The notes under the pieces are model-generated. The model was not told the origin of the DNA. It made no database searches and saw only the letters and a list, made by a program, of their open reading frames with translations. Of a stretch of DNA of 64,000 nt, positions 2,314 to 28,292 are shown in pieces (the stretch's first letter is position 1; each line of letters begins with the position of its first letter). The DNA comes from Phreatobacter aquaticus (lineage in GTDB: Bacteria > Pseudomonadota > Alphaproteobacteria > Rhizobiales > Phreatobacteraceae), in assembly GCF_005160265.1 (NCBI RefSeq), contig NZ_CP039865.1:3186828-3250827 (forward strand). Reading direction: 5' to 3'. A program made the translations under genes and the position numbers.

Positions 2314-2844
2314 ATGAAGGTCATCGGTCTTGCCGGGTGGAGCGGAGCGGGCAAGACGACCCTGCTGGTCAAGCTCATCCCTGCATTGATCGGCCGGGGC
2401 CTGACCGTCTCGACGCTGAAACACGCGCACCATGCTTTCGATATCGATCATCCCGGCAAGGATTCGTTCGAGCACCGGACAGCCGGCGCGTCCGAGGTTC
2501 TGGTGGCCTCGGGGCGCCGCTACGCGCTGATCCACGAACTCCGCCAGGAACCCGAACCGCCGCTCGCCGACCTGCTGGGCAAGCTTTCGCCTGTCGATCT
2601 GGTGCTGGTTGAAGGGTTCAAGCGGGCGCCCCATCCGAAGATCGAGATCTATCGCGCCGCCAACGGCAAGCCGTTCCTGTTCCCCGACCTGCCGAATGTC
2701 CGCGCCCTCATCTCCGATGTTTTGCCGCCGCAATGGACAGGGCCTCACACCGGCCTGAACGAGATCGAGCGGGTCGCGGATCTCGCCCTCGATCATGCGA
2801 GGCCGCTGGCCGACGTGGTCGCCACCCTCCGCATCGGCGCCTGA
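2314..2844 (+). CDS. mobB: Molybdopterin-guanine dinucleotide biosynthesis adaptor MobB
   Basis: A 176-residue GTP-binding protein that assists MobA in attaching GMP to molybdopterin. The P-loop is GWSGAGKTTLL at residues 7-17; TLKHAHHAFDIDHPGKDS and LVLVEGFK are typical MobB blocks. The frame is open further upstream, but homology begins at the ATG at 2314, preceded by a purine-rich GGGGAACGATCTGAA. It sits between the formate dehydrogenase operon and moeA (47 bases downstream), consistent with supplying the bis-MGD cofactor. The upstream fdh terminator implies its own promoter or readthrough. Confidence 0.93.
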   Translation: MKVIGLAGWSGAGKTTLLVKLIPALIGRGLTVSTLKHAHHAFDIDHPGKDSFEHRTAGASEVLVASGRRYALIHELRQEPEPPLADLLGKLSPVDLVLVEGFKRAPHPKIEIYRAANGKPFLFPDLPNVRALISDVLPPQWTGPHTGLNEIERVADLALDHARPLADVVATLRIGA

Positions 2845-2891
2845 GCCCACCAGCATTCCCGTCCCGCCCGTCCGCGTGCTAAGCCCCAACC

Positions 2892-4145
2892 ATGGCGCAG
2901 CTTTCCTCCGATCATTTCGCCTTCGGCCCCGGCCTCCTGTCGATCGAGGAGGCGCTGGCGCGCGCTTCCGCCAATCTCAAGCCTATTGCCGAGGTCGAGA
3001 GCGTCTCGCTGGTCGAGGCCGATGGCCGCATCCTCGCCCATGATCTGATCGCCGGCGTCGATCTGCCACCCTTCTTCAACTCCGCCGTCGACGGCTATGC
3101 GGTGCGCCATGCCGATCTTCAGCCTGGTGGCGAGACGATCATGCCGATCACCGGGCGCATCGCGGCGGGCGGCGAGGGGGCTTTCTCGGTGCCGGCTGGA
3201 GCCGCCGTGCGCATCTTCACCGGGGCGCCGATGCCGGATGGCGCCGATACGGTCTTCATGCAGGAGGATGTGCGGCTGGATGGCAACCGCGTGACCTTGC
3301 CGACCGGCCTGAAGCCTGGCGCGAATTGCCGCCCAGCCGGCGAGGATCTCCCCAGGGGCCAGGTGGCATTGACCGCCGGCCGCCGGATGACGCCCGAGAC
3401 AATCGCGCTGGCGGCCGCTCTCGGCATCGATCGTCTGACGGTGCGCCGACCCATCAGGGTCGCCATCTTCTCGACCGGCGACGAGTTGGTTTCGCCGGGA
3501 CAGGCGCTACCGCCCTCAAGCCTCTATGATTCCAACCGCTTCACGCTCGCAGCCCTGGTGCGCAGGCTGGGCGCCGATGTCACAGATCTCGGTATCCTGA
3601 AGGACAATCGCGAGGCCGTTGCCGCTGCCCTTGCCGGCGCCGCCGCCGATCATGATCTGATCCTCACCTCCGGCGGCGTGTCGACCGGCGAGGAGGATCA
3701 CGTCAAGGCGGCTGTAGAGCAGGAGGGAAGCCTGGCGTTCTGGCGGCTGGCGATCAAGCCCGGCCGTCCCGTGGCGATGGGCGTGGTTGGGGGCACGGCC
3801 TTCATCGGATTGCCGGGCAATCCGGTGGCGGTCTTCATCACATTCGCGCACGTGGTCAGGCCGTTCCTGACGGCGCTCGCCGGCGGCAAGCCCGAGCGGC
3901 CGCTGGCGCTGCCGGTGCGCTCAGGTTTTGCCTATCGCAAGAAAGAAGGCCGCCGGGAATATGTCCGTGTGTCGCTGAACCGTGGCGCAGATGGCGTGGT
4001 CGAGGCACACAAGCACCCGCGCGAAGGCGCGGGCGTCATCACGTCGCTGACCGAGACTGATGGTCTGGTGGAGTTGACCGAAGACATCACCCGGATCGAG
4101 CCGGGCGCGATCGTCGGCTTCCTCAGCTATGCGCTGCTGCGCTGA
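2892..4145 (+). CDS. moeA: Molybdopterin molybdenumtransferase MoeA
   Basis: A 417-residue enzyme that inserts molybdate into adenylylated molybdopterin to make the molybdenum cofactor. The MoeA order of blocks is present: an N-terminal region with PFFNSAVDGYAVR, GAPMPDGADTVFMQED, the MoCF-like domain with FSTGDELV, DSN and TSGGVSTGEEDHV, and a C-terminal domain with FIGLPGNPVAV. Length is normal for MoeA. It lies directly behind mobB in the same direction and converges on a small exported-protein gene 6 bases away. No fusion with other cofactor domains is visible. Confidence 0.95.
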   Translation: MAQLSSDHFAFGPGLLSIEEALARASANLKPIAEVESVSLVEADGRILAHDLIAGVDLPPFFNSAVDGYAVRHADLQPGGETIMPITGRIAAGGEGAFSVPAGAAVRIFTGAPMPDGADTVFMQEDVRLDGNRVTLPTGLKPGANCRPAGEDLPRGQVALTAGRRMTPETIALAAALGIDRLTVRRPIRVAIFSTGDELVSPGQALPPSSLYDSNRFTLAALVRRLGADVTDLGILKDNREAVAAALAGAAADHDLILTSGGVSTGEEDHVKAAVEQEGSLAFWRLAIKPGRPVAMGVVGGTAFIGLPGNPVAVFITFAHVVRPFLTALAGGKPERPLALPVRSGFAYRKKEGRREYVRVSLNRGADGVVEAHKHPREGAGVITSLTETDGLVELTEDITRIEPGAIVGFLSYALLR

Positions 4146-4151
4146 CCGCGC

Positions 4152-4349
4152 TCAGTGGCTGGCGCCGCCGCGATTGGTGCCGCTCCAGTCCTTGCCGACC
4201 AGATTGCTGCCGGCTTCGCCATGGCGCAGCACGGCGCCTGACCCGACATAGCGCGCGTCGGCAGTGGTCTGCAGCTCGGTGTTGAGGACAAAGCCAGCGC
4301 CGGCCGCCAGCAGGATCGCGATGCCGAATGACGCAAGAATGGCTTTCAT
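4152..4349 (-). CDS. Small exported or membrane-anchored protein of unknown function
   Basis: A 65-residue protein starting MKAILASFGIAILLAAGAG, a hydrophobic N-terminal segment that could be an uncleaved anchor or a signal peptide. The rest is a polar, glycine-containing tail ending GTNRGGASH. The ATG at 4349 is chosen because GGGGGAACAG precedes it; an in-frame GTG four codons earlier (4361) is the alternative. It lies between convergent moeA and mobA. I do not recognise a family. Hydrophobic profile and ribosome site support a real gene, but the small size keeps confidence moderate. Confidence 0.55.
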   Translation of the reverse strand: MKAILASFGIAILLAAGAGFVLNTELQTTADARYVGSGAVLRHGEAGSNLVGKDWSGTNRGGASH

Positions 4350-4415
4350 CTGTTCCCCCACGCTTCCTCAGAAGCTGTTGTTTCTTCTTTCAATTTACCA
4401 CTTTGCTGGAACCGT

Positions 4416-5057
4416 TCAAGCGTCGTGGTGACGCATCAGCACGGCGTCTGCCTCGGCAAGATCCTCCGGGCTGTTGGCATTGAAGAACGGATCGAACGGC
4501 TCGGCCGGCCAGACGGCCTCGGCGCAGCCATGGCGGGCGGTCCAGCGGTCGATCTTGCGGATATCCTCGACCACCAGCGCATGGCGCAGGTTCTCGCGCA
4601 GCGCCACCGGCCAGAGACCGATCACCGGGTGAACCTGATCCCCCGATTTCGCGCAGGCGAGCGCCTTGCCTTCCGCCAGCCGCGCGGCATGCAGGCGTGC
4701 GACGAGGTCGCGCGGCAGAAACGGCGCATCGGTGGCAACCGACAGCACCCATTGGATGTCGGGACGGTGTGTGGCGGTCCAGTCGAGTGCTGCCAGAATG
4801 CCGGCAAGCGGTCCCGCAAAGCCCGGCACATCATCGGCGACTACCGGGCGACCCAGAAAGCCGAAGCGCAGCGGATCGCCATTGGCATTGACGATTAGCG
4901 CCTCGCATTGCGGCGAGACCCGTTCGACGACCCGGTCGAGGATCGTCCGGCCGCCGACGGTCTTCATCGGCTTGTCGCCGCCACCCATGCGGCGCGCGAG
5001 GCCGCCGGCCAGCAGCACGCCCAGGGTCGGCGGCGGCTCAATCATCGGAACCACCAT
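4416..5057 (-). CDS. mobA: Molybdenum cofactor guanylyltransferase MobA
   Basis: Transfers GMP from GTP to molybdenum cofactor, making MGD for formate dehydrogenase. The nucleotidyltransferase signature [15 protein letters not shown] lies near residues 14-28, with [17 protein letters not shown] and ATDAPFLP further on. The start is ambiguous: the ATG at 5057 has AAGGTGG five bases upstream, and the ATG four codons later (5045) overlaps the fdhD stop region. Either way the gene overlaps the end of fdhD, which suggests translational coupling. The extra N-terminal residues in the longest open frame lack support. Confidence 0.93.
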
Positions 5058-5928
5058 CGAAGCCACCTTTGCGCCGGCTCTTCGAACTTTCCTCGGCGAC
5101 ATAGGCGAGGTCCTGGTCGAAGATGATCCGGTCCTCGCCGGCCAGCGCCACGAACCGCTTGCCCTTTGCCCGCCCGATCAGGGTCAGGCCGCATTGGCGC
5201 GCAAGCTGCACACCCCAGGCTGTGAAGCCGGAGCGCGAGACCAGCACGGGAATGCCCATCCGCACCGTCTTGATGACCATTTCCGAGGTCAGCCGCCCGG
5301 TCGTGTAGAAGATCTTGTCGGCGCCGGTCTCGCCGTGCCGGTACATCCAGCCGGCAACCTTGTCGACGGCGTTGTGGCGGCCGACATCCTCCATATAGAC
5401 CAGTGGCTCGTCCTCGCGGCAGAGCACCGATCCATGGATCGCGCCGGCCGTGAGGTACAGCGACGGCATGGTGTTGATGGCGCTGGTCAGCCGGTAGAGC
5501 CAGGACGTCCGGAGTGGCGTCTTGGGCAGTTCGATATCGCCCAGCGCCTCCATCAGGTCGCCGAAAGCCGTGCCCTGGGCGCACCCCGACGTCTGGGTCC
5601 TCTTCTTCAGCTTTTCCTCGAAATTGGTGTTGGTGTCGGTGCGCACCACCACCACTTCGAGGTCCTCGTCATAGTCGACCCCGGTGACCACATCGGTCGG
5701 CTTCAGCATGTTCTGGTTTAAGAGATAGCCGATCGCCAAATATTCAGGGTAATCGCCGATCGTCATCATCGTGACAATCTCCTGGGCGTTCAGGTAGAGC
5801 GTCAGCGGCCGCTCGACCGTGACTGCCGTTTCGATCGTCTCGCCACGCTCATCAACGCCAGTCACGCGCTCGGTGAGCCGTGGATCGTGCGGATTGGGAA
5901 CGATGCGGGGGCCGGTCACGCTGCTCAC
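5038..5928 (-). CDS. fdhD: Formate dehydrogenase accessory sulfurtransferase FdhD
   Basis: A 296-residue protein that passes sulfur from a cysteine desulfurase to the molybdenum cofactor before its insertion into formate dehydrogenase. Family blocks include [38 protein letters not shown] and [13 protein letters not shown]. The redox loop reads SGCAQGTAF: one cysteine is kept where the E. coli protein has CxxC. It starts with GTG whose bases overlap the mrp TGA, and its 3' end overlaps mobA, so mrp-fdhD-mobA is one coupled operon. Its position opposite the fdhABC operon fits the function. Confidence 0.94.
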
Positions 5929-7067
5929 TCGATCACGATGGCCGGCGGCGGCTTGATCGTCACGTCACCGACACCGGTCAGGCTCGCCCAGACCTGGGCC
6001 GCGATGTCGCGATAGACAAGCGCATTGGGGCTGCCGGGATCGGTCGCGACAATCGGCTGGCCACTGTCGGAACGCTCGCGCAGCTTCATGTCGAGCGGGA
6101 TTTCGCCGAGGAACGGCACGCCGAGGCGTTCGGCTTCGCGTCTCGCGCCGCCATGGCCGAAGATGTCGTAGCGATTGCCGGTATCGGGAGCGATGAAATA
6201 GCTCATGTTCTCGACAATGCCGAGGATCGGCACTTCGGTCTTGCGGAACATGGCGACGCCGCGCCGAGCGTCAATGAGGGCGAGATCCTGCGGCGTCGAG
6301 ACGATGACGGCGCCGGCGAGCGGGGTCGCCTGCGCCATGGTCAGCTGCGCGTCGCCAGTGCCGGGCGGCATGTCCACCACCAGCACGTCGAGATCGCCCC
6401 AGGCAACCTCGCGCAGCATCTGGGTGATGGCGCTCATCACCATCGGTCCGCGCCAGATCATCGGCGTCTCTTCCTCGACAAGGAAGCCGATCGACATGAC
6501 CTTGACGCCGAAATTCTCAAGCGGCGCCAGCGTCCGGCCCGAGATCACGCGCGGCTTGCCATGCAGGCCGAACAGCTTCGGCAGCGACGGCCCATAGATA
6601 TCCGCGTCCAGGATGCCGACACGCTTGCCGAGACCGGCGAGCGCTAGAGCGAGGTTGCAGGCCGTCGTCGACTTGCCGACACCGCCCTTGCCGGAGGCGA
6701 CCGCGATGACATGGGCAACGCCGGGAATGGTGGTGGCCTTGGGCGAGGGGGGCTGGCTCGGCCGACCCGGTATCACATGCGGCTGGGTCGAAGGCGGCAC
6801 CCGCTGGGGGGCCTTGGCATCCGGACGGTCGGCGGTCAGCGACACCAGCGCCTGGGTCACGCCGGGCAGGCCGCCAATCGCCGATTGCGCGGCAAGACGC
6901 ACCGGCTCCATGGCGGCGGCTTCGGTCGGATCGATGGCGATCGCCACCATCACCTTGCCGTCATTGACGATGATGTCGGAGAGCCGCCCGGATGCCGTGA
7001 GCGACTGGCCGCTGGCCGGCAGCTTCACGAGTTCGAGCGCGCGGGCGACCTGTTGCTGACTGACCAT
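5925..7067 (-). CDS. mrp: Mrp/NBP35-family P-loop ATPase (Fe-S cluster carrier type)
   Basis: A 380-residue ATPase of the Mrp/ApbC family. An N-terminal MIP18-like (DUF59) domain covers about residues 1-90, a Pro-rich linker follows, then a deviant Walker A in VASGKGGVGKSTTACNLA and DADIYGPSLPKLFG. Family members carry Fe-S clusters to apoproteins using a C-terminal CxxC. Here the matching stretch reads MSYFIAPDTGNRYDIFGHGG and has no cysteine; the whole protein has a single Cys, next to the P-loop. The gene is coupled to fdhD through overlapping stop and start codons, which hints at a role in formate dehydrogenase maturation. Confidence 0.9.
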   Translation of the reverse strand: MVSQQQVARALELVKLPASGQSLTASGRLSDIIVNDGKVMVAIAIDPTEAAAMEPVRLAAQSAIGGLPGVTQALVSLTADRPDAKAPQRVPPSTQPHVIPGRPSQPPSPKATTIPGVAHVIAVASGKGGVGKSTTACNLALALAGLGKRVGILDADIYGPSLPKLFGLHGKPRVISGRTLAPLENFGVKVMSIGFLVEEETPMIWRGPMVMSAITQMLREVAWGDLDVLVVDMPPGTGDAQLTMAQATPLAGAVIVSTPQDLALIDARRGVAMFRKTEVPILGIVENMSYFIAPDTGNRYDIFGHGGARREAERLGVPFLGEIPLDMKLRERSDSGQPIVATDPGSPNALVYRDIAAQVWASLTGVGDVTIKPPPAIVIE

Positions 7068-18690: not shown

Positions 18691-19665
18691 TCACTCGGTC
18701 AGGACCTTCAGGGCCGCAGCGCCCTGGTAGCCATAGACGTCGTGAAGCAGGGTGAGAATCTCACGTGCCAGCGCGACGTCGTCGAAGACCTCGATCGAAT
18801 AGCTGCGGGAATGGTTGGGGCCTCGGCCAGGCGGCGCATAGCCCGCGCGCCTGAGGCGCCCCAGCCGATCAGGCGTCAGGATGGCCGCCAGAGCGGGCCA
18901 GCTCTCTGCCGACTGAGCCTCGCAATAGATCGCGGCAGCCTGCCGCTCCGGCATGCATTGGATATAGCCGATGCCGGCGTCGAAGACGGTGTGAACCCGG
19001 CGCGCCGCGTTGATCCGAAGCCGCTGAATCTCGGCTGCGACGCTCACGCTGTAGAGATCGACCAGTTCGGCGGCCGACGTCACGGTCTGGGGCGGCGCCG
19101 CCGCCGCATAAGAACAGGCGAAAATGGCGGTCGGGCGCATCGACGGCGCGTCGTTCACCAGGCCTGCGAGGTTCTGGCTGGGGCCATTCCGGGGCGGGCA
19201 GGGCATGTCGAGAACCCAGGCCGTCTGGACCTGGAGCGCTGCAGGATCCGCGCCGTAAATGTCCTGCAGCACGGCGAGGATGGCCTGCGCGGCTCGGTCC
19301 GTCGGCTCACTCGGCACAAAGACCCGCACGTGATGGCCAAAACTTGCATCCAGCACCCAGCTGGCCTGGGCGAGCGCGGCCAGCCGATCGCCGGTCAGCA
19401 CATGGCGAAGCGAGGGCTGCAGCAATGTGCCGGCTGCCTCGCAGCGGAGGCTTCGGTCGGGAAGTCGGCGGCACTGAACATAGATGTTGCCGTCCCAGAT
19501 CGTTGCGTAGCCGACCCGGCCGCTGCGCAGCAATGTCGTGATGTTGTCGAGCGCTTCGGCGATCCGCCCTCGGGCGGGCTGGGCCTGACTGTTGCCGGAA
19601 AGGCCTATCGTCATGAGCGCGATGGCGAGCACCCGCGTCACCAGAGTCCGCCGAGATTTTCCCAT
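18691..19665 (-). CDS. Exported protein with two copies of an uncharacterised domain
   Basis: A 324-residue protein. AGGAG before the ATG at 19665 fixes the start, and residues 1-29 form a signal peptide (ends SQAQ). Two regions, about residues 50-150 and 230-324, look homologous: each has IY[VI]QC, a CEA block, an LT-x-DRL-x-x-L block and L-x-D-[IV]YG, ending with LxVxT or LKVLT. The second copy has PALAAILTPDRLGRLRRAGY, a pattern I associate with conserved uncharacterised alphaproteobacterial proteins. Cysteines occur in pairs and could form disulfides. No catalytic motif is seen. It is preceded by an AT-rich divergent promoter region. Confidence 0.75.
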   Translation of the reverse strand: MGKSRRTLVTRVLAIALMTIGLSGNSQAQPARGRIAEALDNITTLLRSGRVGYATIWDGNIYVQCRRLPDRSLRCEAAGTLLQPSLRHVLTGDRLAALAQASWVLDASFGHHVRVFVPSEPTDRAAQAILAVLQDIYGADPAALQVQTAWVLDMPCPPRNGPSQNLAGLVNDAPSMRPTAIFACSYAAAAPPQTVTSAAELVDLYSVSVAAEIQRLRINAARRVHTVFDAGIGYIQCMPERQAAAIYCEAQSAESWPALAAILTPDRLGRLRRAGYAPPGRGPNHSRSYSIEVFDDVALAREILTLLHDVYGYQGAAALKVLTE

Positions 19666-19936
19666 GCTAATCTCCTGCAACATTGCCCGCAGCGGACGAA
19701 GGCCCGTCCGTAACTGGCGGCTGGAGTAAAATAATCGGAACAAAAAAAGAACATACCAAAAATTTGAGTCAAGATGCAATATTAATACGGTAAATGCCGG
19801 AGTGAGGTCGCATCGATGTCGGTGCGAAGGCAGGGCTCTTCCGCCTCTTCGGCGCCTTGAGGCCGCCACGCTGGTCCTTGTCGCGGAGCGCGTCCGGCTT
19901 CAAGGTCGCGGCACCACACAGCTAGAGTGCAGCCCC

Positions 19937-20902: not shown

Positions 20903-20952
20903 GGGTCGGTTCCGGTTGGACGATGCTGGCGCTCATATGGGCCTGTTGGCGC

Positions 20953-22068
20953 TCAATCCCAAGTGAGCGCACCGCCGTTCTGATATTCGATAACGCGGGT
21001 CTCGAAGAAGTTCTTCTCCTTCTTCAGGTCCATCGCTTCCGACATCCAGGGGAACGGGTTCTCTGTCTCGGCAAAGACGGGAGCGAGGCCCAGCTGCGCG
21101 CAGCGCCGGTTGGCGATGAAGTGCATATATTGCTCGCAGAGCGCCGCGTTGAGACCGAGGAACCCGCGTGGCATCGTGTCCCGGCCATAGGCTGCCTCGA
21201 GCTCGGCTGCATCCTTGAGCATGGTCCTGACTTCTTCCTGGAAGGCATGGCTCCACAGGTGCGGGTTCTCGGCCTTGATCTGGTTGATCACGTCGATGCC
21301 GAAGTTCAGGTGGATGCTCTCGTCGCGCAGGATGTACTGATATTGCTCGGCAATGCCGACCATCTTGTTGCGCCGGCCGAGCGACAGGATCTGCGCAAAG
21401 CCCGTGTAGAACCACATGCCTTCGAACACGACATAGAAGGCGACAAGGTCGCGCAGGAAGGCCTGATCGGCTGCCGGTGTGCCGGTCTGGAACGCGGGAT
21501 CGTCGAGGTTCTGCGTGTGTTTCAGCGCCCAGGCCGCCTTGTCGGTGATCGAGGGCACCTCGCGATACATGTTGAACAGTTCGCCCTCGTCGAGGCCAAG
21601 GCTCTCCACGATGTACTGGAACGTGTGGGTGTGGACCGCCTCCTCGAAGGCTTGGCGCAGCAGATATTGCCGGCATTCCGGATTGGTCAGGTGGCGGTAG
21701 ATCGCCAGCACGATGTTGTTGGCGACCAGGCTCTCGGACGCGGCGAAGAAGCCGAGATTGCGCTTCAGCATGCGCTGCTCATCCTCGGTGAGCCCATCCT
21801 TCGACTTCCACAGCGCGATATCGGCCTGCATCGAGACCTCCGTCGGCATCCAGTGGTTGTTGCAGCCGGCGAGATATTTCTCCCAGGCCCAGCGATATTT
21901 CATCGGCAGCAGCTGGTTCACATCGGCGCGGGCATTGATCATCCGCTTCTCGTCGACCGAGACCCGGCCGCCGGAGCGGTCGATGGTGCCGAGGCCGGTG
22001 ATATCGGCGGGGGCGGCAGGCGGCAGGGGGAGGGCAGGGGCGGACACGGGTTCGGACCAGTCGAGCAT
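20953..22068 (-). CDS. nrdB: Ribonucleotide reductase small subunit, class Ic type
   Basis: A 371-residue R2 subunit that stores the oxidant needed by NrdA to make deoxynucleotides. Predicted metal ligands are E112, E143, H146, E216, E250 and H253. The radical-tyrosine position reads EAVHTHTF, with F150 instead of Tyr. The spacing 31-3-4-66-34-3 is the same as that known for the Mn/Fe enzyme of Chlamydia trachomatis (E89, E120, H123, F127, E193, E227, H230). The first ligand is Glu, not Asp. The ATG at 22068 has GGAGA upstream. It follows nrdA by 233 bases that hold a palindromic repeat, and should be co-transcribed from the riboswitch-controlled nrdA promoter. Confidence 0.95.
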
Positions 22069-22101
22069 GGCGATGTTCTCCAGAGATTGTTCGGGTCTGT
22101 G

Positions 22102-22275
22102 GCCCCTCATCCGCCCCGTTGGGGCACCTTCTCCCCGCAGGCGGGGAGAAGGAAACAGCGGCACCATCTCTCTTGGCGGGGAGACAGAGCGTCTCAGCTG
22201 CAGAGCGGGTGTCCGCAAGAGAGGGCGGAGACGTCCCCTCTCCCCGCATGCGGGGAGAGGGTTAGGGTGAGGGGC
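22102..22275. repeat. Composite palindromic intergenic repeat between nrdA and nrdB
   Basis: Outer arms GCCCCTCAT (22102-22110) and GTGAGGGGC (22267-22275) are inverted repeats with one mismatch. Inside are a perfect 12-bp hairpin (22127-22138 with 22141-22152), a small GCCCC/GGGGC hairpin (22113-22125) and a perfect 26-base palindrome (22236-22261) of the form CCCTCTCCCCGCA plus its complement. This resembles the mosaic intergenic palindromes of rhizobia and relatives. Only one copy is in the window. In the transcript it would fold into strong hairpins between nrdA and nrdB. Confidence 0.75.
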
Positions 22276-22301
22276 TCAGGGCAGGAATTCGGAAACGGGC
22301 G

Positions 22302-25184
22302 CTACTGGCACGCCTCGCAGGTCGGATCGTCGACCGCGCAGGCCTGGCCCCAGGCCTCGCCGAGCACGATCGGGGCGGCCGCAACCGGAATGCTGGCCGA
22401 AACCGCGTTCAGCTTGCCGTCGGTGCCCTTCAGCGTCGATTTCTCCACATGGGTCGCCGAGCGCGAGCGCAGGTAATAGGTGGTCTTCAGCCCCCGCTCC
22501 CAGGCGAGCCGATAGAGCTGGTCGAGCTTCTTGCCCGAGGGGTTGGCGATATAGAGGTTGAGCGACTGCGCCTGGTCGATCCACTTCTGGCGGCGCGCGG
22601 CCGCCTCGATCAGCCAGGATGAATCGATCTCGAAGGCGGTGGCATAGAGCGCCTTGAGATCGTCCGGGATGCGGTCGATCTGGCCGACCGACCCGTCGAA
22701 ATATTTGAGATCCGAGACCATCACCTCGTCCCACAGGCCACGCGCCTTGAGATCGTGGACCAGCGCCGCATTCACGACCGTGAAGTCGCCGGACATGTTC
22801 GATTTGACGAACAGGTTCTGGTAGGCGGGCTCGATCGACTGGGCGACGCCGCAGATGTTCGAAATGGTCGCCGTCGGCGCAATCGCCATGCAGTTGGAAT
22901 TGCGCATGCCGATGGTCATCACGCGTTGGCGCAAGCCCGCCCAGTCGAGGGTTTGTGAACGGTCGCAATCGAGCCCGCCACGGGCCTCCGCGACCAGCTC
23001 GATGGAATCGACCGGCAGGATGCCGCGCGACCAGAGCGAGCCCGCAAAGCTCGGATAGCGCCCGCGCTCGGCGGCGAGATCCACCGAAGCCGAGATCGCC
23101 TCATAGGCGATCGCCTCCATGCTCTCGTCGGCGAAGCGCACCGCCGCGTCCGAGGCATAGGGCAGCCGCAGCGCCTGCAGCGCATCCTGGAAGCCCATGA
23201 TCCCGAGGCCCACCGGCCGGTGCTTCAGGTTGGAGCGGCGCGCCTCGGGGATCGTGTAGAAATTGATGTCGACCACATTGTCGAGCATGCGCATCGCGGT
23301 TTTCACCGTCGCCGCCAGCCGGGCCCGGTCGAGCCCGCGGGGCGTCACATGCTGGGCGAGGTTGACGGACCCCAGATTGCACACCGCCACCTCGTCGTTC
23401 GACGTGTTGAGGGTGATCTCGGTGCAGAGGTTCGACGAATGGACCACGCCGACATGGCCCTGCGGCGAGCGGATGTTGCAGGGATCCTTGAAGGTGATCC
23501 AGGGATGACCGGTCTCGAACACCATGGTCAGCATGCGCCGCCAAAGATCGGCCGCGCGCACCTCGCGGGTGACCTTCATCTCGCCGCGCGCGGCCTTGGC
23601 CTCATAGGCCTCGTACGCCGTCTTGAAGGCCTTGCCGTAGAGATCGTGGAGATCGGGCGTCTCGTCGGGTGAGAACAGGGTCCACGGGCCGTTTTCCGCC
23701 ACCCGCTGCATGAACAGGTCCGGCACCCAGTTCGCCGTGTTCATGTCATGGGTCCGGCGGCGGTCGTCGCCGGTGTTCTTCCTGAGATCGAGGAATTCCT
23801 CGATGTCGATGTGCCAGGTCTCGAGATAGGCGCAGACCGCGCCCTTGCGCTTGCCCCCCTGGTTGACCGCGATCGCCGTGTCGTTGGCGACCTTCAGGAA
23901 CGGCACCACACCCTGGCTCTCGCCATTGGTGCCCTTGATGTGGGCGCCAAGCCCGCGCACCCGGCTCCAGTCATTGCCGAGTCCGCCGGAATATTTGGCG
24001 AGCAGGGCATTGTCCCGGATCGACTTGAAGATGCCGTCGAGATCGTCCGGCACGGTCGTCAGGAAGCAGGAGGAGAGCTGCGGGCGCAGCGTGCCCGCAT
24101 TGAACAGGGTCGGCGTCGAGGCCATGAAATCAAAGGAGGAGAGCAGGTCGTAGAATTCGATGGCGCGGGCGTCGCGGTCGATCTCGCGCAGCGCCAGCCC
24201 CATCGCCACCCGCATGAAAAAGGCCTGCGGCAGCTCGAAGCGGCGTCCCTCGACATGCAGGAAATAGCGATCATAGAGCGTCTGCAGGCCGAGATAGTCG
24301 AATTGCAGGTCACGCTCCGGCTTGAGGGCTGCGGCGATCCGCCCGAGGTCGAAGCGCTGCAGCTCCGGGTCGATCAGCTCGGCGGCAATGCCCTTGGCGA
24401 GATAGGCGTGGAAATAGGCGCCGTAGCGCCCGGCCATCTCGGCCTGCGTCGCCTGCTCGGGGCAGCCATCGATGAAGGTCAGGACCTCGCTGCGCAGCTT
24501 GTCGAGCAGCAGACGCGCGCTCGCCTTGGCATAGTTCGGCTCGGTCTCGATGAAGGTGCGGGCCGCCAGGATCGGCGCCTGGGCCAGTTCGTCGGCCGAG
24601 ATCCCGTCATAGAGATTGCGCCCCGTCTCGGTCAGGATCGCGGTTGCTGACACGCCGTCGAGGCCGGCAGAGGCTTCCTCGACCACGGCGGCGAGCCGCG
24701 CGCGCTTGATCGGCACAAGCGACCCATCGGCCGCCGTCATGCGCAACACCGGCGCGGGCTCGGCGAGAACGGCCGCCGGAGGCGCACTCCGCGCCCGCTC
24801 GCGGGCCCGGTCTTCGCGATAGAGCACATAGGCGCGCGCCACCTTGTGGTGTTCGCCGCGCATCAGCGCCAGTTCCACCTGGTCCTGGATATCCTCGATA
24901 TGAAAGGTGCGGCCTGCATCGGCCCGGCGGGCGAGGCTGGCTGCGATCTGCGCCGAGAGCTCCGCCACGATGTCGTGGACGCGGCGGGAGGCGGCGGCGC
25001 TGTTGCCTTCCACCGCCAGGAAGGCCTTGGTTAGCGCGACCGAGATCTTGGCAAGGTCGAACGGTGTGACGAGGCCGTTGCGCCGGATCACCTGATAGCC
25101 GGGCGTCGCGGCGGCCGTTGCGCCGCCGGCCGTTACGGGATGAGGCCGCGCGGCCTGCGATTCGGATTGGACTTCGAGAGACAT
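22302..25184 (-). CDS. nrdA: Ribonucleotide reductase large subunit with two ATP-cones
   Basis: A 960-residue catalytic subunit that reduces ribonucleoside diphosphates. Two N-terminal ATP-cone regulatory domains lie at about residues 30-125 (YQVIRRNGLVTPF) and 145-245 (AADGSLVPIKRARLAAVVEE). The core has QLSSCFLTTV, SNLCTEITL (the N-x-C-x-E active site) and VAVCNLGSVNL (partner Cys). The C-terminal redox pair is C956-E-A-C959. Length and two cones fit the NrdAz group that includes class Ic enzymes. The start at 25184 is chosen because the upstream codons fall in the riboswitch leader. Expression is expected to fall when cobalamin is abundant. Confidence 0.95.
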   Translation of the reverse strand: MSLEVQSESQAARPHPVTAGGATAAATPGYQVIRRNGLVTPFDLAKISVALTKAFLAVEGNSAAASRRVHDIVAELSAQIAASLARRADAGRTFHIEDIQDQVELALMRGEHHKVARAYVLYREDRARERARSAPPAAVLAEPAPVLRMTAADGSLVPIKRARLAAVVEEASAGLDGVSATAILTETGRNLYDGISADELAQAPILAARTFIETEPNYAKASARLLLDKLRSEVLTFIDGCPEQATQAEMAGRYGAYFHAYLAKGIAAELIDPELQRFDLGRIAAALKPERDLQFDYLGLQTLYDRYFLHVEGRRFELPQAFFMRVAMGLALREIDRDARAIEFYDLLSSFDFMASTPTLFNAGTLRPQLSSCFLTTVPDDLDGIFKSIRDNALLAKYSGGLGNDWSRVRGLGAHIKGTNGESQGVVPFLKVANDTAIAVNQGGKRKGAVCAYLETWHIDIEEFLDLRKNTGDDRRRTHDMNTANWVPDLFMQRVAENGPWTLFSPDETPDLHDLYGKAFKTAYEAYEAKAARGEMKVTREVRAADLWRRMLTMVFETGHPWITFKDPCNIRSPQGHVGVVHSSNLCTEITLNTSNDEVAVCNLGSVNLAQHVTPRGLDRARLAATVKTAMRMLDNVVDINFYTIPEARRSNLKHRPVGLGIMGFQDALQALRLPYASDAAVRFADESMEAIAYEAISASVDLAAERGRYPSFAGSLWSRGILPVDSIELVAEARGGLDCDRSQTLDWAGLRQRVMTIGMRNSNCMAIAPTATISNICGVAQSIEPAYQNLFVKSNMSGDFTVVNAALVHDLKARGLWDEVMVSDLKYFDGSVGQIDRIPDDLKALYATAFEIDSSWLIEAAARRQKWIDQAQSLNLYIANPSGKKLDQLYRLAWERGLKTTYYLRSRSATHVEKSTLKGTDGKLNAVSASIPVAAAPIVLGEAWGQACAVDDPTCEACQ

Positions 25185-25233
25185 GGCTGGGCCCCGGCGC
25201 TGGTTGCAGGCGGGGGGAACAGGAAACGCCCGT

Positions 25234-25260
25234 GCGGGCGGACGGCACACCGTCCCCCGC
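25234..25260 (-). promoter_or_regulatory. Leader hairpin between the B12 riboswitch and nrdA
   Basis: Two abutting blocks, CGTCC-type and GCGGG-type, give an 11-bp stem with one bulged base and a four-base loop, 50 bases before the nrdA ATG. Position suits an expression-platform element, either ending transcription or exposing a ribosome site, but only TTT follows it on the transcript. Confidence 0.45.
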
Positions 25261-25310
25261 AAGTCCAAGCGCACCTCTGGGACACCCCGCCCATGGTTGA
25301 TCGTCGCGTC

Positions 25311-25486
25311 GGGGCAGGTCTCCTGGCTCGCGGGTCGCGGCTCTCGTCCGGTCTTCCCAGGGCCTGGCCCCAGTGACACGAAGTGGACGAAAGCTCGCCG
25401 CTTACAGTTGCGGGGACAGCTTCGGCTTTGGCCCGCTGCGAGCGGACCACACCGAATTCCCTCTTAGCTTCCGACGGGAATCGGAA
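25311..25486 (-). ncRNA. Cobalamin (AdoCbl) riboswitch upstream of nrdA
   Basis: Read on the minus strand, the aptamer landmarks occur in order. A first hairpin (TTCCGA ... TCGGAA) leads to GCTAAGAGGGAA, then CGGTG, GCTGTCCCCGCAACTGTAAG, TCACTGG, GGGAAGACC, and finally the B12 box GAGCCAGGAGACCTGCC. It starts just below a TTGACA promoter and ends about 127 bases before the nrdA start. In known systems this aptamer lowers expression of B12-independent enzymes when cobalamin binds, so it should repress nrdA and the downstream nrdB. Confidence 0.93.
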
Positions 25487-25502
25487 GACCTCGACGCCCA
25501 TA

Positions 25503-25531
25503 TGTAGTGGGTGGGGTGCCTGAACTGTCAA
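25503..25531 (-). promoter_or_regulatory. Putative sigma-70 promoter for nrdA
   Basis: A minus-strand TTGACA (25526-25531) is followed after exactly 17 bases by ACTACA (25503-25508), a modest -10. Transcription would start near 25496, about ten bases before the first riboswitch hairpin, which supports the call. Confidence 0.5.
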
Positions 25532-25573
25532 TCCGTCGTGGCTGTGGACAGCGTGGACGATATAGCAATTAAG

Positions 25574-25595
25574 GACATAAACATGTCTTTATATC
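25574..25595. promoter_or_regulatory. Imperfect 22-base palindrome between the nrdA and metE promoters
   Basis: GACATAAACATGTC and the bases after it form a dyad with 8 of 11 positions symmetric, pattern GA-ATAAA-A over its complement. It lies in an AT-rich gap between the two -35 boxes and ends five bases before the metE-side TTGACA. It could bind a dimeric regulator. ArsR-type methionine regulators are one possibility; I cannot confirm any. Confidence 0.35.
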
Positions 25596-25599
25596 ATTC

Positions 25600-25627
25600 T
25601 TGACATCGCCGCCGTTTCCCCCATGCT
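25600..25627 (+). promoter_or_regulatory. Putative sigma-70 promoter for metE
   Basis: A consensus TTGACA at 25600-25605 is followed after 16 bases by CATGCT (25622-25627). Transcription would begin near 25634, about ten bases before the riboswitch, the same arrangement as on the nrdA side. Confidence 0.5.
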
Positions 25628-25643
25628 GAGCGCGTCGTGGTTC

Positions 25644-25814
25644 TTCGGGCCTGCTTGCCCGAAGCTAAGAGGGAATCCGGTGCGCCCCAGGGCAAGGCCG
25701 GAGCTGCCCCCGCAACTGTCAGCGGCGAGCCGTCGTCCATTCAGCGTCACTGGAACCGTCAGGTTTTGGGAAGACCCGGACGAGGGCCGTGACCCGTGAG
25801 CCAGGAGACCTGCC
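25644..25814 (+). ncRNA. Cobalamin (AdoCbl) riboswitch upstream of metE
   Basis: The plus strand carries the same aptamer landmarks as the nrdA element: hairpin TTCGGGC/GCCCGAA, GCTAAGAGGGAA, CCGGTG, GCTGCCCCCGCAACTGTCAG, TCACTGG, GGGAAGACCCGGACGAG, and the B12 box GAGCCAGGAGACCTGCC. It lies about 126 bases before the metE ATG. Cobalamin binding should repress metE, leaving methionine synthesis to a B12-dependent MetH encoded elsewhere. Confidence 0.94.
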
Positions 25815-25861
25815 TCGACATCAACGTCCACGGGCGGGGTGTCCCAGTGTGTCGCTTGCCA

Positions 25862-25886
25862 ACGGCTGGTCCGCGCGACCGGCCGT
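25862..25886 (+). promoter_or_regulatory. Leader hairpin between the B12 riboswitch and metE
   Basis: ACGGCTGGTC (25862-25871) pairs with GACCGGCCGT (25877-25886) with one G-U pair and a CGCGC loop. It lies between aptamer and start codon, like the hairpin on the nrdA side, so it may belong to the expression platform. No T-run follows. Confidence 0.4.
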
Positions 25887-25940
25887 CGTCCCGCATGCGT
25901 GCGCTGATCGAGGCCTCGCCCCATCAATCGGGGTAAAGCC

Positions 25941-28292
25941 ATGTCGACCATCCGTCACTCCACTCTTTCCACCGCCACGCTCGGCGTGCCGCGCATCGGC
26001 CCACGACGCGAACTGAAACTCGCGCTCGAACGCTATTGGTCCGGCGAATCCAGCCAATCGGCCCTCATGGAGGCGGCGAGTGCGCTGCGCATCGCCAACT
26101 GGGCCCGCCAGAAGGCCCTCGGGATCCGTGTCATCCCGTCCAACGACTTCTCGCTCTACGACCACATGCTGGATCTCGCCTGCATGGTCGGCGCGATCCC
26201 TGACCGGTTCGGCTGGGACGGCGGCCCGGTCACCCTCGACACCTATTTCGCCATGGCGCGCGGGCGGCTTGGCGGGAAGACAGACGATTGCGGCTGCGCC
26301 ACCAGCCACGCTGATCAAGCGGGCGTGCCGGCGCTGGAGATGACCAAGTGGTTCGACACCAATTACCACTACATGGTCCCCGAATTCGAACGGGGCCAGG
26401 AGTTCCGGCTCGCCACCCTCAAGCCGCTGGACCAGTTCCTGGAGGCCAGGGAACTGGGTTACCAGACGAGGCCCGTCCTTGTCGGTCCCGTCACCTTCCT
26501 CAAGCTCGGCAAGGCCAGGGACGGCTCCTTCGAGCCGCTGGCACTGATCGGCGATCTGCTGCCGGCCTATATCGACATGCTCCGGCGTCTCCATGCCAAT
26601 GGCGCCGAATGGGTGCAGATCGACGAGCCCTGCCTCGCGCTCGACCTGACCGAGGCTGAAGCCACCGTGCTCCGGCAGACCTACCAGGCGATCGCCCGGG
26701 CGCTTCCCGGCCTCAAGATCATGCTGACGACCTATTTCGGCGGGCTCGGCGCCAATATCGATACGGCCTTCGGCCTGCCGGTCGCGGGCCTGCACATCGA
26801 TCTTGCCCGCGCGCCCGACCAGCTCGACCGGGTTCTGGCCAAGGCGCCGCGCGGCCTCGTCCTGTCGCTCGGAATCATCGACGGCCGCAACATCTGGCGC
26901 GCTGATCTCGGCGCCATTCTCGACCGGCTGGAACCGGTGGTGGCGCGGCGCGGCACCGACCATATCCAGATCGCCCCGTCCTGCTCGCTGCTGCACGTGC
27001 CGGTCGATCTGGTGCAGGAACGCGACCTCGATCCGGACCTCGTCAATTGGCTCGCCTTCTCGGTGCAGAAGATGGAGGAACTGGCGATCCTTGGCCGGGC
27101 CCTCTGCGAGGGGCGGGCGGCCGTCGGCGAAGCCATTGCGGCATCGGCCGCGGCTCTGGCCGCGCGGCGCATCTCGCCGAAGGTCCACGATGCCGCGGTC
27201 GCCGCGCGGCTGGCCACCGTCACGCCCGCCATGGCGAGCCGCGCCAGCGCCTTCGCCATCCGCGCCGGCAAGCAACGCCGCCGCTTCGGCCTGCCGGCCT
27301 TCCCGACCACCACGATCGGCTCGTTCCCGCAGACGGCGGAAGTCCGCAAGGCCCGCTCCGCCCATGCCAAGGGCACCATCGACCAGGCCGCCTATGACGG
27401 CTTCCTGCGCGAGGAGACCGAACGCGCCGTGCGCTGGCAGGAGGAGATCGGCCTCGACGTGCTGGTCCATGGCGAGTTCGAGCGCAACGACATGGTGCAG
27501 TACTTCGGCGAACAGCTCGCAGGCTTTGCCTTCACCCGCCACGGCTGGGTGCAGAGCTATGGTTCCCGTTGTGTGCGGCCGCCAATCCTGTTCGGCGACG
27601 TCGCGCGGCCGACCCCGATAACAGTCGGCTGGTGGCGCTATGCCCAGTCGCTCACCACGCGGCCGATGAAGGGCATGCTCACCGGCCCGGTCACCATCCT
27701 CAACTGGTCCTTCGTGCGCGACGACGTGCCGCGCAGTCAGGCCTGCCGGCAGATCGCACTTGCCATCCGCGACGAGGTGTCCGACCTCGAACAGGCGGGC
27801 GCCGCCATGATCCAGATCGACGAGGCGGCGCTCCGCGAAGGTCTGCCGCTGCGCCGTGCGGAATGGCCGGCCTATCTCGACTGGGCGGTGGAGTGCTTCC
27901 GGCTCTGCGCCTCGGGCGTCGGCGACGAAACGCAGATCCACACCCACATGTGCTATTCCGAGTTCAACGACATCATCGATGCGATCGCGGCCATGGATGC
28001 CGACGTCATCTCGATCGAGACCTCGCGCTCTCGGATGGAGCTGCTCGATGCGTTCCGCACCTTCCAGTACCCGAACGAGATCGGCCCCGGCGTCTATGAC
28101 ATTCATTCGCCGCGCGTGCCGGCGGTGGCCGAGATGGTCGATCTCCTGAAGCTTGCGCGCCGGCGGCTCGCCGATGAGCAGATCTGGATCAATCCCGACT
28201 GCGGTCTGAAGACCCGCGGCTGGGCCGAGGTGCGGCCGGCGCTGGTCAACATGGTCGAGGCCGCGCGCCAGATGCGGCTTGCCGCACGCTAG
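25941..28292 (+). CDS. metE: Cobalamin-independent methionine synthase MetE
   Basis: A 783-residue enzyme that moves the methyl group of methyltetrahydropteroyl-polyglutamate to homocysteine without B12. Two related barrels are present. The N-terminal half begins with [20 protein letters not shown]. The C-terminal catalytic half begins near [12 protein letters not shown] and has the zinc ligands in [10 protein letters not shown] (His and Cys) and [12 protein letters not shown] (Cys). It is about 30 residues longer than the E. coli enzyme. It is read divergently from nrdAB behind its own riboswitch. Its TAG stop shares CTAG with the stop of the convergent gene at 28289. Confidence 0.96.

Follow-up and report, generated by a model that had tools for sequence, protein, structure and literature searches.

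Back-to-back cobalamin riboswitches and a putative SahR operator in the intergenic region between nrdAB and metE of Phreatobacter aquaticus

In a stretch of 64,000 nucleotides from the genome of Phreatobacter aquaticus (the window), the genes of a B12-independent ribonucleotide reductase (RNR) and of a B12-independent methionine synthase diverge from a gap of 756 bases, and each strand of this gap carries a full-length cobalamin aptamer in the 5' leader of the B12-related gene that follows. We read the locus as a compact module for B12 shortage, in which both backup enzymes would be repressed by B12 through the paired riboswitches, and we give this reading a probability of roughly 0.85. It would place the backup enzymes of DNA synthesis and of methionine supply under B12 control as one physical unit, in a strain that is probably unable to make B12.

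The gap extends exactly over 25185-25940, from the ATG of nrdA (25184, minus strand) to the ATG of metE (25941, plus strand). The gene models on both sides score above the NCBIfam cut-offs, in agreement with an earlier note on this DNA, which had described a 756-base divergent region leading to nrdA-nrdB on one side and to metE on the other. The start of nrdB is our choice; its open frame extends to 22218. The genes and aptamers are:

20953-22068, minus strand: nrdB, class Ia RNR small subunit, start at ATG 22068 (PRK07209, 672.7 bits, cut-off 309)
22302-25184, minus strand: nrdA, class Ia RNR large subunit, 960 amino acids (PRK07207, 1695.4 bits, cut-off 965)
25508-25296, minus strand: cobalamin riboswitch aptamer of nrdAB (RF00174, 131.1 bits, E = 1e-32, model positions 1-189)
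25621-25831, plus strand: cobalamin riboswitch aptamer of metE (RF00174, 118.7 bits, E = 3.7e-29, model positions 1-189)
25941-28292, plus strand: metE, B12-independent methionine synthase, 783 amino acids (TIGR01371, 1092.2 bits, cut-off 929.95)

The two aptamers, with 112 bases between them, were the only Rfam matches at or above the gathering threshold (31.5 for RF00174) when cmscan was run on the whole 64-kb window; the covariance search thus bears out the claim of a full aptamer on each strand. An exact B12 box, GAGCCAGGAGACCTGCC, lies at 25798-25814 on the plus strand and its reverse complement at 25313-25329, close to the positions given earlier. The identity of the two aptamers is 0.73, and that between nrdA and metE aptamers elsewhere 0.58-0.76. 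We considered whether one aptamer had recently arisen from the other by inverted duplication, or whether gene conversion had acted on the two, and found no support for this: in the Bradyrhizobium-type pairs an nrdA aptamer always has its closest relative among the other nrdA aptamers. The window is a mild exception, its nrdA aptamer having its own metE aptamer, at 0.73, at rank 2 overall.

Cobalamin riboswitches stand upstream of the Streptomyces nrdABS genes and of many metE genes, where B12 represses the B12-independent isozyme. The pair in the window shares with these the aptamer family, the target genes and the proposed logic; it differs in that its targets share one divergent intergenic region, both strands of which carry an aptamer, and in that a putative operator lies between the promoters in the genus of the window. 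The head-to-head layout is also found in the cobW/cbtA pairs of Rhizobiaceae, the TonB receptor pairs of Acetobacter and the cobN/binding-protein pairs of Paenibacillus, but these govern genes for the supply of cobalt or B12 and not B12-independent enzymes.

Both B12-dependent partner enzymes had been predicted to be encoded elsewhere in the genome, and both are present. The gene of the class II RNR, nrdJ, lies outside the window at 3038707-3042423 (NF005736, 2316.9 bits, cut-off 1737). For metH we find a split gene pair (1220.6 and 511.5 bits): one gene encodes the homocysteine-methyltransferase part, the other the folate/B12/activation part, a small methyltransferase gene separates the two, and the pair stands downstream of metF and a gene for an ArsR-family regulator. 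At locus L044, metH in this split form, the small methyltransferase gene included, occupies 2393-6907. The genome, a single contig of 4.97 Mb, has three RF00174 matches, that is, the pair in the window and a third at 3310752-3310978, upstream of a btuB-type TonB-dependent receptor. In the complete genome we were not able to find any match to CbiC/CobH (PF02570); 7 of 14 control genomes had one. Because of this result, in which one family, CbiC/CobH, represents the corrin-synthesis side, and because of the riboswitch before the receptor, B12 is probably imported and the strain is probably a B12 scavenger. Elsewhere in the window, 18694-19869 on the minus strand encodes a protein of 392 amino acids with a TY-Chap3 chaperone-like domain.

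We propose that a divergent pair of promoters, separated by about 70 bp, would drive the two leaders, each of which opens with a cobalamin aptamer of its own. With ample adenosylcobalamin or a related corrinoid, both leaders would be in the bound form, which would favour a hairpin over the Shine-Dalgarno (SD) sequence GGGG; nrdAB and metE would then be kept low, and the work would be done by NrdJ and MetH. When B12 is short, both backups would be released together. In the genus of the window, the SahR-type operator by the -35 box of metE would make the transcription of this gene also track S-adenosylhomocysteine. The elements on which this proposal is built are:

25192-25217, minus strand: putative SD hairpin of nrdA (CCCC...GGGG next to the ATG), weaker than the metE-side hairpin
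25277-25295, minus strand: P13-like element of the nrdA leader, GGGCGGGGTGTCCC (GGGCGGGGTG conserved in nrdA leaders)
25526-25531, minus strand: putative -35 box of nrdA, TTGACA (TGTCAA kept in 18 aligned intergenic regions)
25574-25595, both strands: palindrome GACATAAACATGTCTTTATATC, putative SahR operator (three sites genome-wide, at most 3 mismatches)
25600-25605, plus strand: putative -35 box of metE, TTGACA (TTGAC kept in 18 aligned intergenic regions)
25622-25627, plus strand: candidate -10 box of metE, CATGCT
25828-25847, plus strand: P13-like element of the metE leader, CCACGGGCGGGGTGTCCCAG (GGGCGGGGTG conserved in metE leaders)
25919-25933, plus strand: putative SD hairpin of metE, CCCCATCAATCGGGG (pattern C3-5...GGGG-ATG)

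Across the 18 aligned intergenic regions, conservation extends to both -35 boxes, to the P13-like element and to the sequence upstream of each start. A consensus promoter scan gave no full promoter for nrdA or metE. In the larger set of distinct leaders, GGGCGGGGTG is found 3' of the B12 box in all 55 nrdA leaders, in 34 of 37 metE leaders and in 18 of 58 other cobalamin riboswitches; for the SD hairpin pattern the respective numbers are 42/55, 34/37 and 4/58 (the 37 metE leaders count the G040 locus twice, and with repeats the sets hold 58 nrdA, 37 metE and 59 other leaders). In the available text of PMC9600662, an L13 hairpin downstream of the cobalamin aptamer is described to dock on L5 as a kissing loop. 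A P13-like element is present in both leaders of the window, and L13-L5 docking is its predicted role.

Folding of the leaders gave a z-score of -2.02 for metE and of -0.77, which is not unusual, for nrdA. When the metE leader is folded freely, its P13-like element pairs with the CCCC strand. Holding the P13-like loop raises the predicted pairing of CCCC with the SD from 0.03 to 0.75 in the metE leader of the window and from 0.02 to 0.48 in its nrdA leader. For both leaders of the window and for the metE leaders of two congeners (L038 and L039), another fold is predicted in which the SD would become free. As a general mechanism, such an antisequestor found no support across 45 nrdA and 33 metE leaders: its mean probability is low (0.14 and 0.12, respectively), and the pairing of SD and CCCC went up with the loop held in only 25 of the 45 and 20 of the 33.

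Between the two promoters lies an element that the earlier note had overlooked, a SahR-type operator, which would be a second input for metE and possibly an input for nrdAB. The 20-bp palindrome is 4 bases away from the -35 box of metE and 42 from that of nrdA. Allowing three mismatches, we find it in the whole genome only in the nrdA/metE gap, before ahcY and before the sahR-like gene that is followed by metF and metH; the reversed control gave no site. This sahR-like gene encodes an ArsR-family regulator (HTH_5, 1.1e-13; NF033788, 73.3 versus 55 bits) fused to a methyltransferase domain. All 12 genomes of the genus have the palindrome, with three sites in the three genomes that contain the pair, two in eight and one in G009, and the reversed control is 0 in all 12. 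Among these sites, the 18 with loci L103-L121 and a matching gene bear out ahcY or sahR-metF as the neighbour outside the pair.

PMC4239095 describes SahR as an ArsR-family regulator with core sites at ahcY and sahR-metF-metH. Since the other sites in our genome stand only before ahcY and sahR-like-metF-metH, we take the palindrome, which is new here, as a putative SahR operator; it fits what is expected of one. That it should be the operator of another regulator is improbable, as these only other sites precede the core SahR regulon, and the SahR palindrome of PMC4239095 is 20 bp long as well.

With up to four mismatches, the palindrome stands by the promoter of 12 of 16 separate and all 4 back-to-back riboswitched metE genes, together 16 of 20 such leaders outside the Bradyrhizobium-type pairs; 3 of the 4 metE genes without it belong to one family (f35). 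At the same threshold it was found in none of 16 Bradyrhizobium-type pairs, in none of 7450 shuffles, in none of 35 nrdA leaders that have no intergenic region in common with metE, and near the promoter of 4 of 58 other cobalamin riboswitches. Because the palindrome tracks metE leaders and is absent from separate nrdA leaders, its distribution marks it as a metE operator, and from its place beside the -35 box the transcription of metE should follow S-adenosylhomocysteine. An action on nrdAB is a guess. The site offers a testable second input within the same 756 bases.

As far as the available text of PMC4239095 goes, metE is a SahR target in 29% of the SahR genomes of the groups concerned. Compared with the Proteobacterial SahR regulon outlined there, the window genome has the same regulator family, palindrome length and sites at ahcY and sahR-metF-metH; beyond what is outlined there, its metE has a cobalamin riboswitch, and nrdAB lies opposite the site. 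For Priestia megaterium metE, the accessible part of PMC9600662 reports a tandem SAM-Cbl riboswitch. Both metE genes would thus have two inputs, the methyl cycle and B12, but in Priestia megaterium both inputs are RNA and on one strand, whereas one of those in the window is a DNA operator. In two Sphingomonas loci (L065 and L068), a SahR-like palindrome likewise lies between two cobalamin riboswitches arranged back to back, and the pair of L068 faces MesX and a TonB receptor.

The pair had been called unusual; it turned out to be recurrent, in two congeners, 14 Bradyrhizobium contigs and one further family. We surveyed 61 genomes (the window's own, 11 of its genus and 49 others of the order). 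NrdA of the window type is found in 5 of them and MetE in 6; the three genomes with both always have the genes back to back, and an RF00174 match lies just upstream of 5/5 nrdA and 6/6 metE genes. We also scanned 84,980 genomes for a pair of exact B12 boxes 441-501 bases apart; this pattern scan gives lower bounds and returned at least 39 stretches. Sixteen are nrdA/metE pairs (14 from Bradyrhizobium, one from a Hyphomicrobiales MAG and one from another MAG) and 23 are not; for 10 proteins of the latter, Pfam gave cobW/cbtA, TonB receptors, MesX, HupE-like, cobN and a binding protein, with one unmatched.

In the whole order, with 397 genomes searched at the set E-value, 50 have NrdA of the window type, and in 45 of these the score is above the cut-off. 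From 42 of these 45 we collected 43 nrdAB loci (40 stretches plus the window, L038 and L039), a set that leaves out G380, G085, G074 and the five genomes below the cut-off and in which some stretches end at contig ends. By a motif test that agreed with Rfam at 31/31 loci compared, a riboswitch lies upstream of nrdA at 39 of the 43; Rfam matches also support the switch in seven more stretches, among them the back-to-back pairs L174 and L201. At 20 of the 43 loci metE is found within about 8.5 kb of nrdAB, in four layouts: five back to back (the window, L038, L039, L174 and L201), six divergent but farther apart, three tandem and six convergent. In summary, the parts are known and the arrangement is recurrent, and paired switches across several bacterial lineages look like a compact emergency kit for B12 shortage. 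In searches of open PMC papers, with subscription papers on B12 regulons outside this scope, and in passages of PMC4239095, PMC5343134, PMC8123684 and PMC9600662, we found no description of nrdAB and metE with a common riboswitched intergenic region, nor of a metE gene that SahR and a cobalamin riboswitch control together.

One could argue that these are two ordinary riboswitches which are neighbours by chance, and that the divergent layout has no meaning. The 23 pairs that join other B12-related genes, mostly cobW/cbtA and TonB receptors, would fit this, as would the finding that the aptamers of the window are not recent copies of one another. On the other hand, metE keeps recurring near nrdAB in several layouts, we estimate the chance expectation in a 5-Mb genome at well under 1 in 100, and the block shared within the genus is just nrdB-nrdA-metE in differing surroundings (DNA homology to the congeners spans only about 20950-28271, the contig of L038 being short). 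We therefore hold chance to be very unlikely.

Somewhat less remote, though still unlikely, is that the two leaders sense different corrinoids or different levels, so that the genes are switched separately. NrdJ and MetH use different upper ligands of cobalamin, adenosyl and methyl, respectively, and the aptamers belong to diverged lineages; yet the B12 boxes are identical and the P13-like element is the same in nrdA and metE leaders. We would give slightly more weight, while still finding it doubtful, to a transcriptional control by intrinsic or Rho-dependent termination in the leader. There is one terminator-like site, in the nrdA leader, but this is within chance (0.4 expected, sd 0.8) and not convincing, and the hairpin over the SD is kept in most leaders, which points to the translational control of our main reading.

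With groups defined by gene layout after a FastTree tree had been seen, a single origin of the back-to-back layout, with the window genus and Bradyrhizobium as one clade, was rejected both for NrdA (p-AU 6.8e-45 with L175 and L177, 0.00115 without) and for MetE (p-AU 1.3e-4, with L062 kept outside the group although the FastTree tree places it beside L177). A clade of the window genus and L201 was rejected for MetE (p-AU 6e-47) and not for NrdA (p-AU 0.216). The NrdA proteins of the three congeners themselves form no supported clade (FastTree support 0.36; two changes). Since the one-clade hypothesis is rejected for both proteins, these trees suggest that the back-to-back layout either arose more than once or is old with many losses. 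In an empty-site comparison, the SCO1 neighbour was not syntenic in the congeners. A speculative idea is that nrdAB and metE form a kit for B12 independence that is mobile or has been assembled repeatedly; in its back-to-back form, the single intergenic region would integrate two riboswitches and a SahR operator, which, from its place between the promoters, would link the making of DNA precursors with the methyl cycle and its state.

NrdJ is present in 42 of the 50 genomes with nrdA. Within the set of 42 genomes checked for the switch, nrdJ is missing from four and only four, G285, G311, G338 and G350, and these are the genomes of the four loci that have no nrdA riboswitch. They offer a natural control for the idea that such switches occur only together with a B12-dependent partner; as all four belong to one genus, the joint absence may be a single evolutionary event.

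Further cobalamin riboswitches were seen beside nrdAB at L185 (3006-3210, minus strand), L188 (6497-6701, minus strand) and L192 (12645-12858, plus strand). The next gene at L185 and L192 encodes a Rieske-type ring-hydroxylating oxygenase, perhaps a B12-independent stand-in for a demethylase. At L192, another cobalamin riboswitch (4884-5091, plus strand) lies upstream of the class III RNR gene nrdD, adjoining the riboswitched nrdAB.
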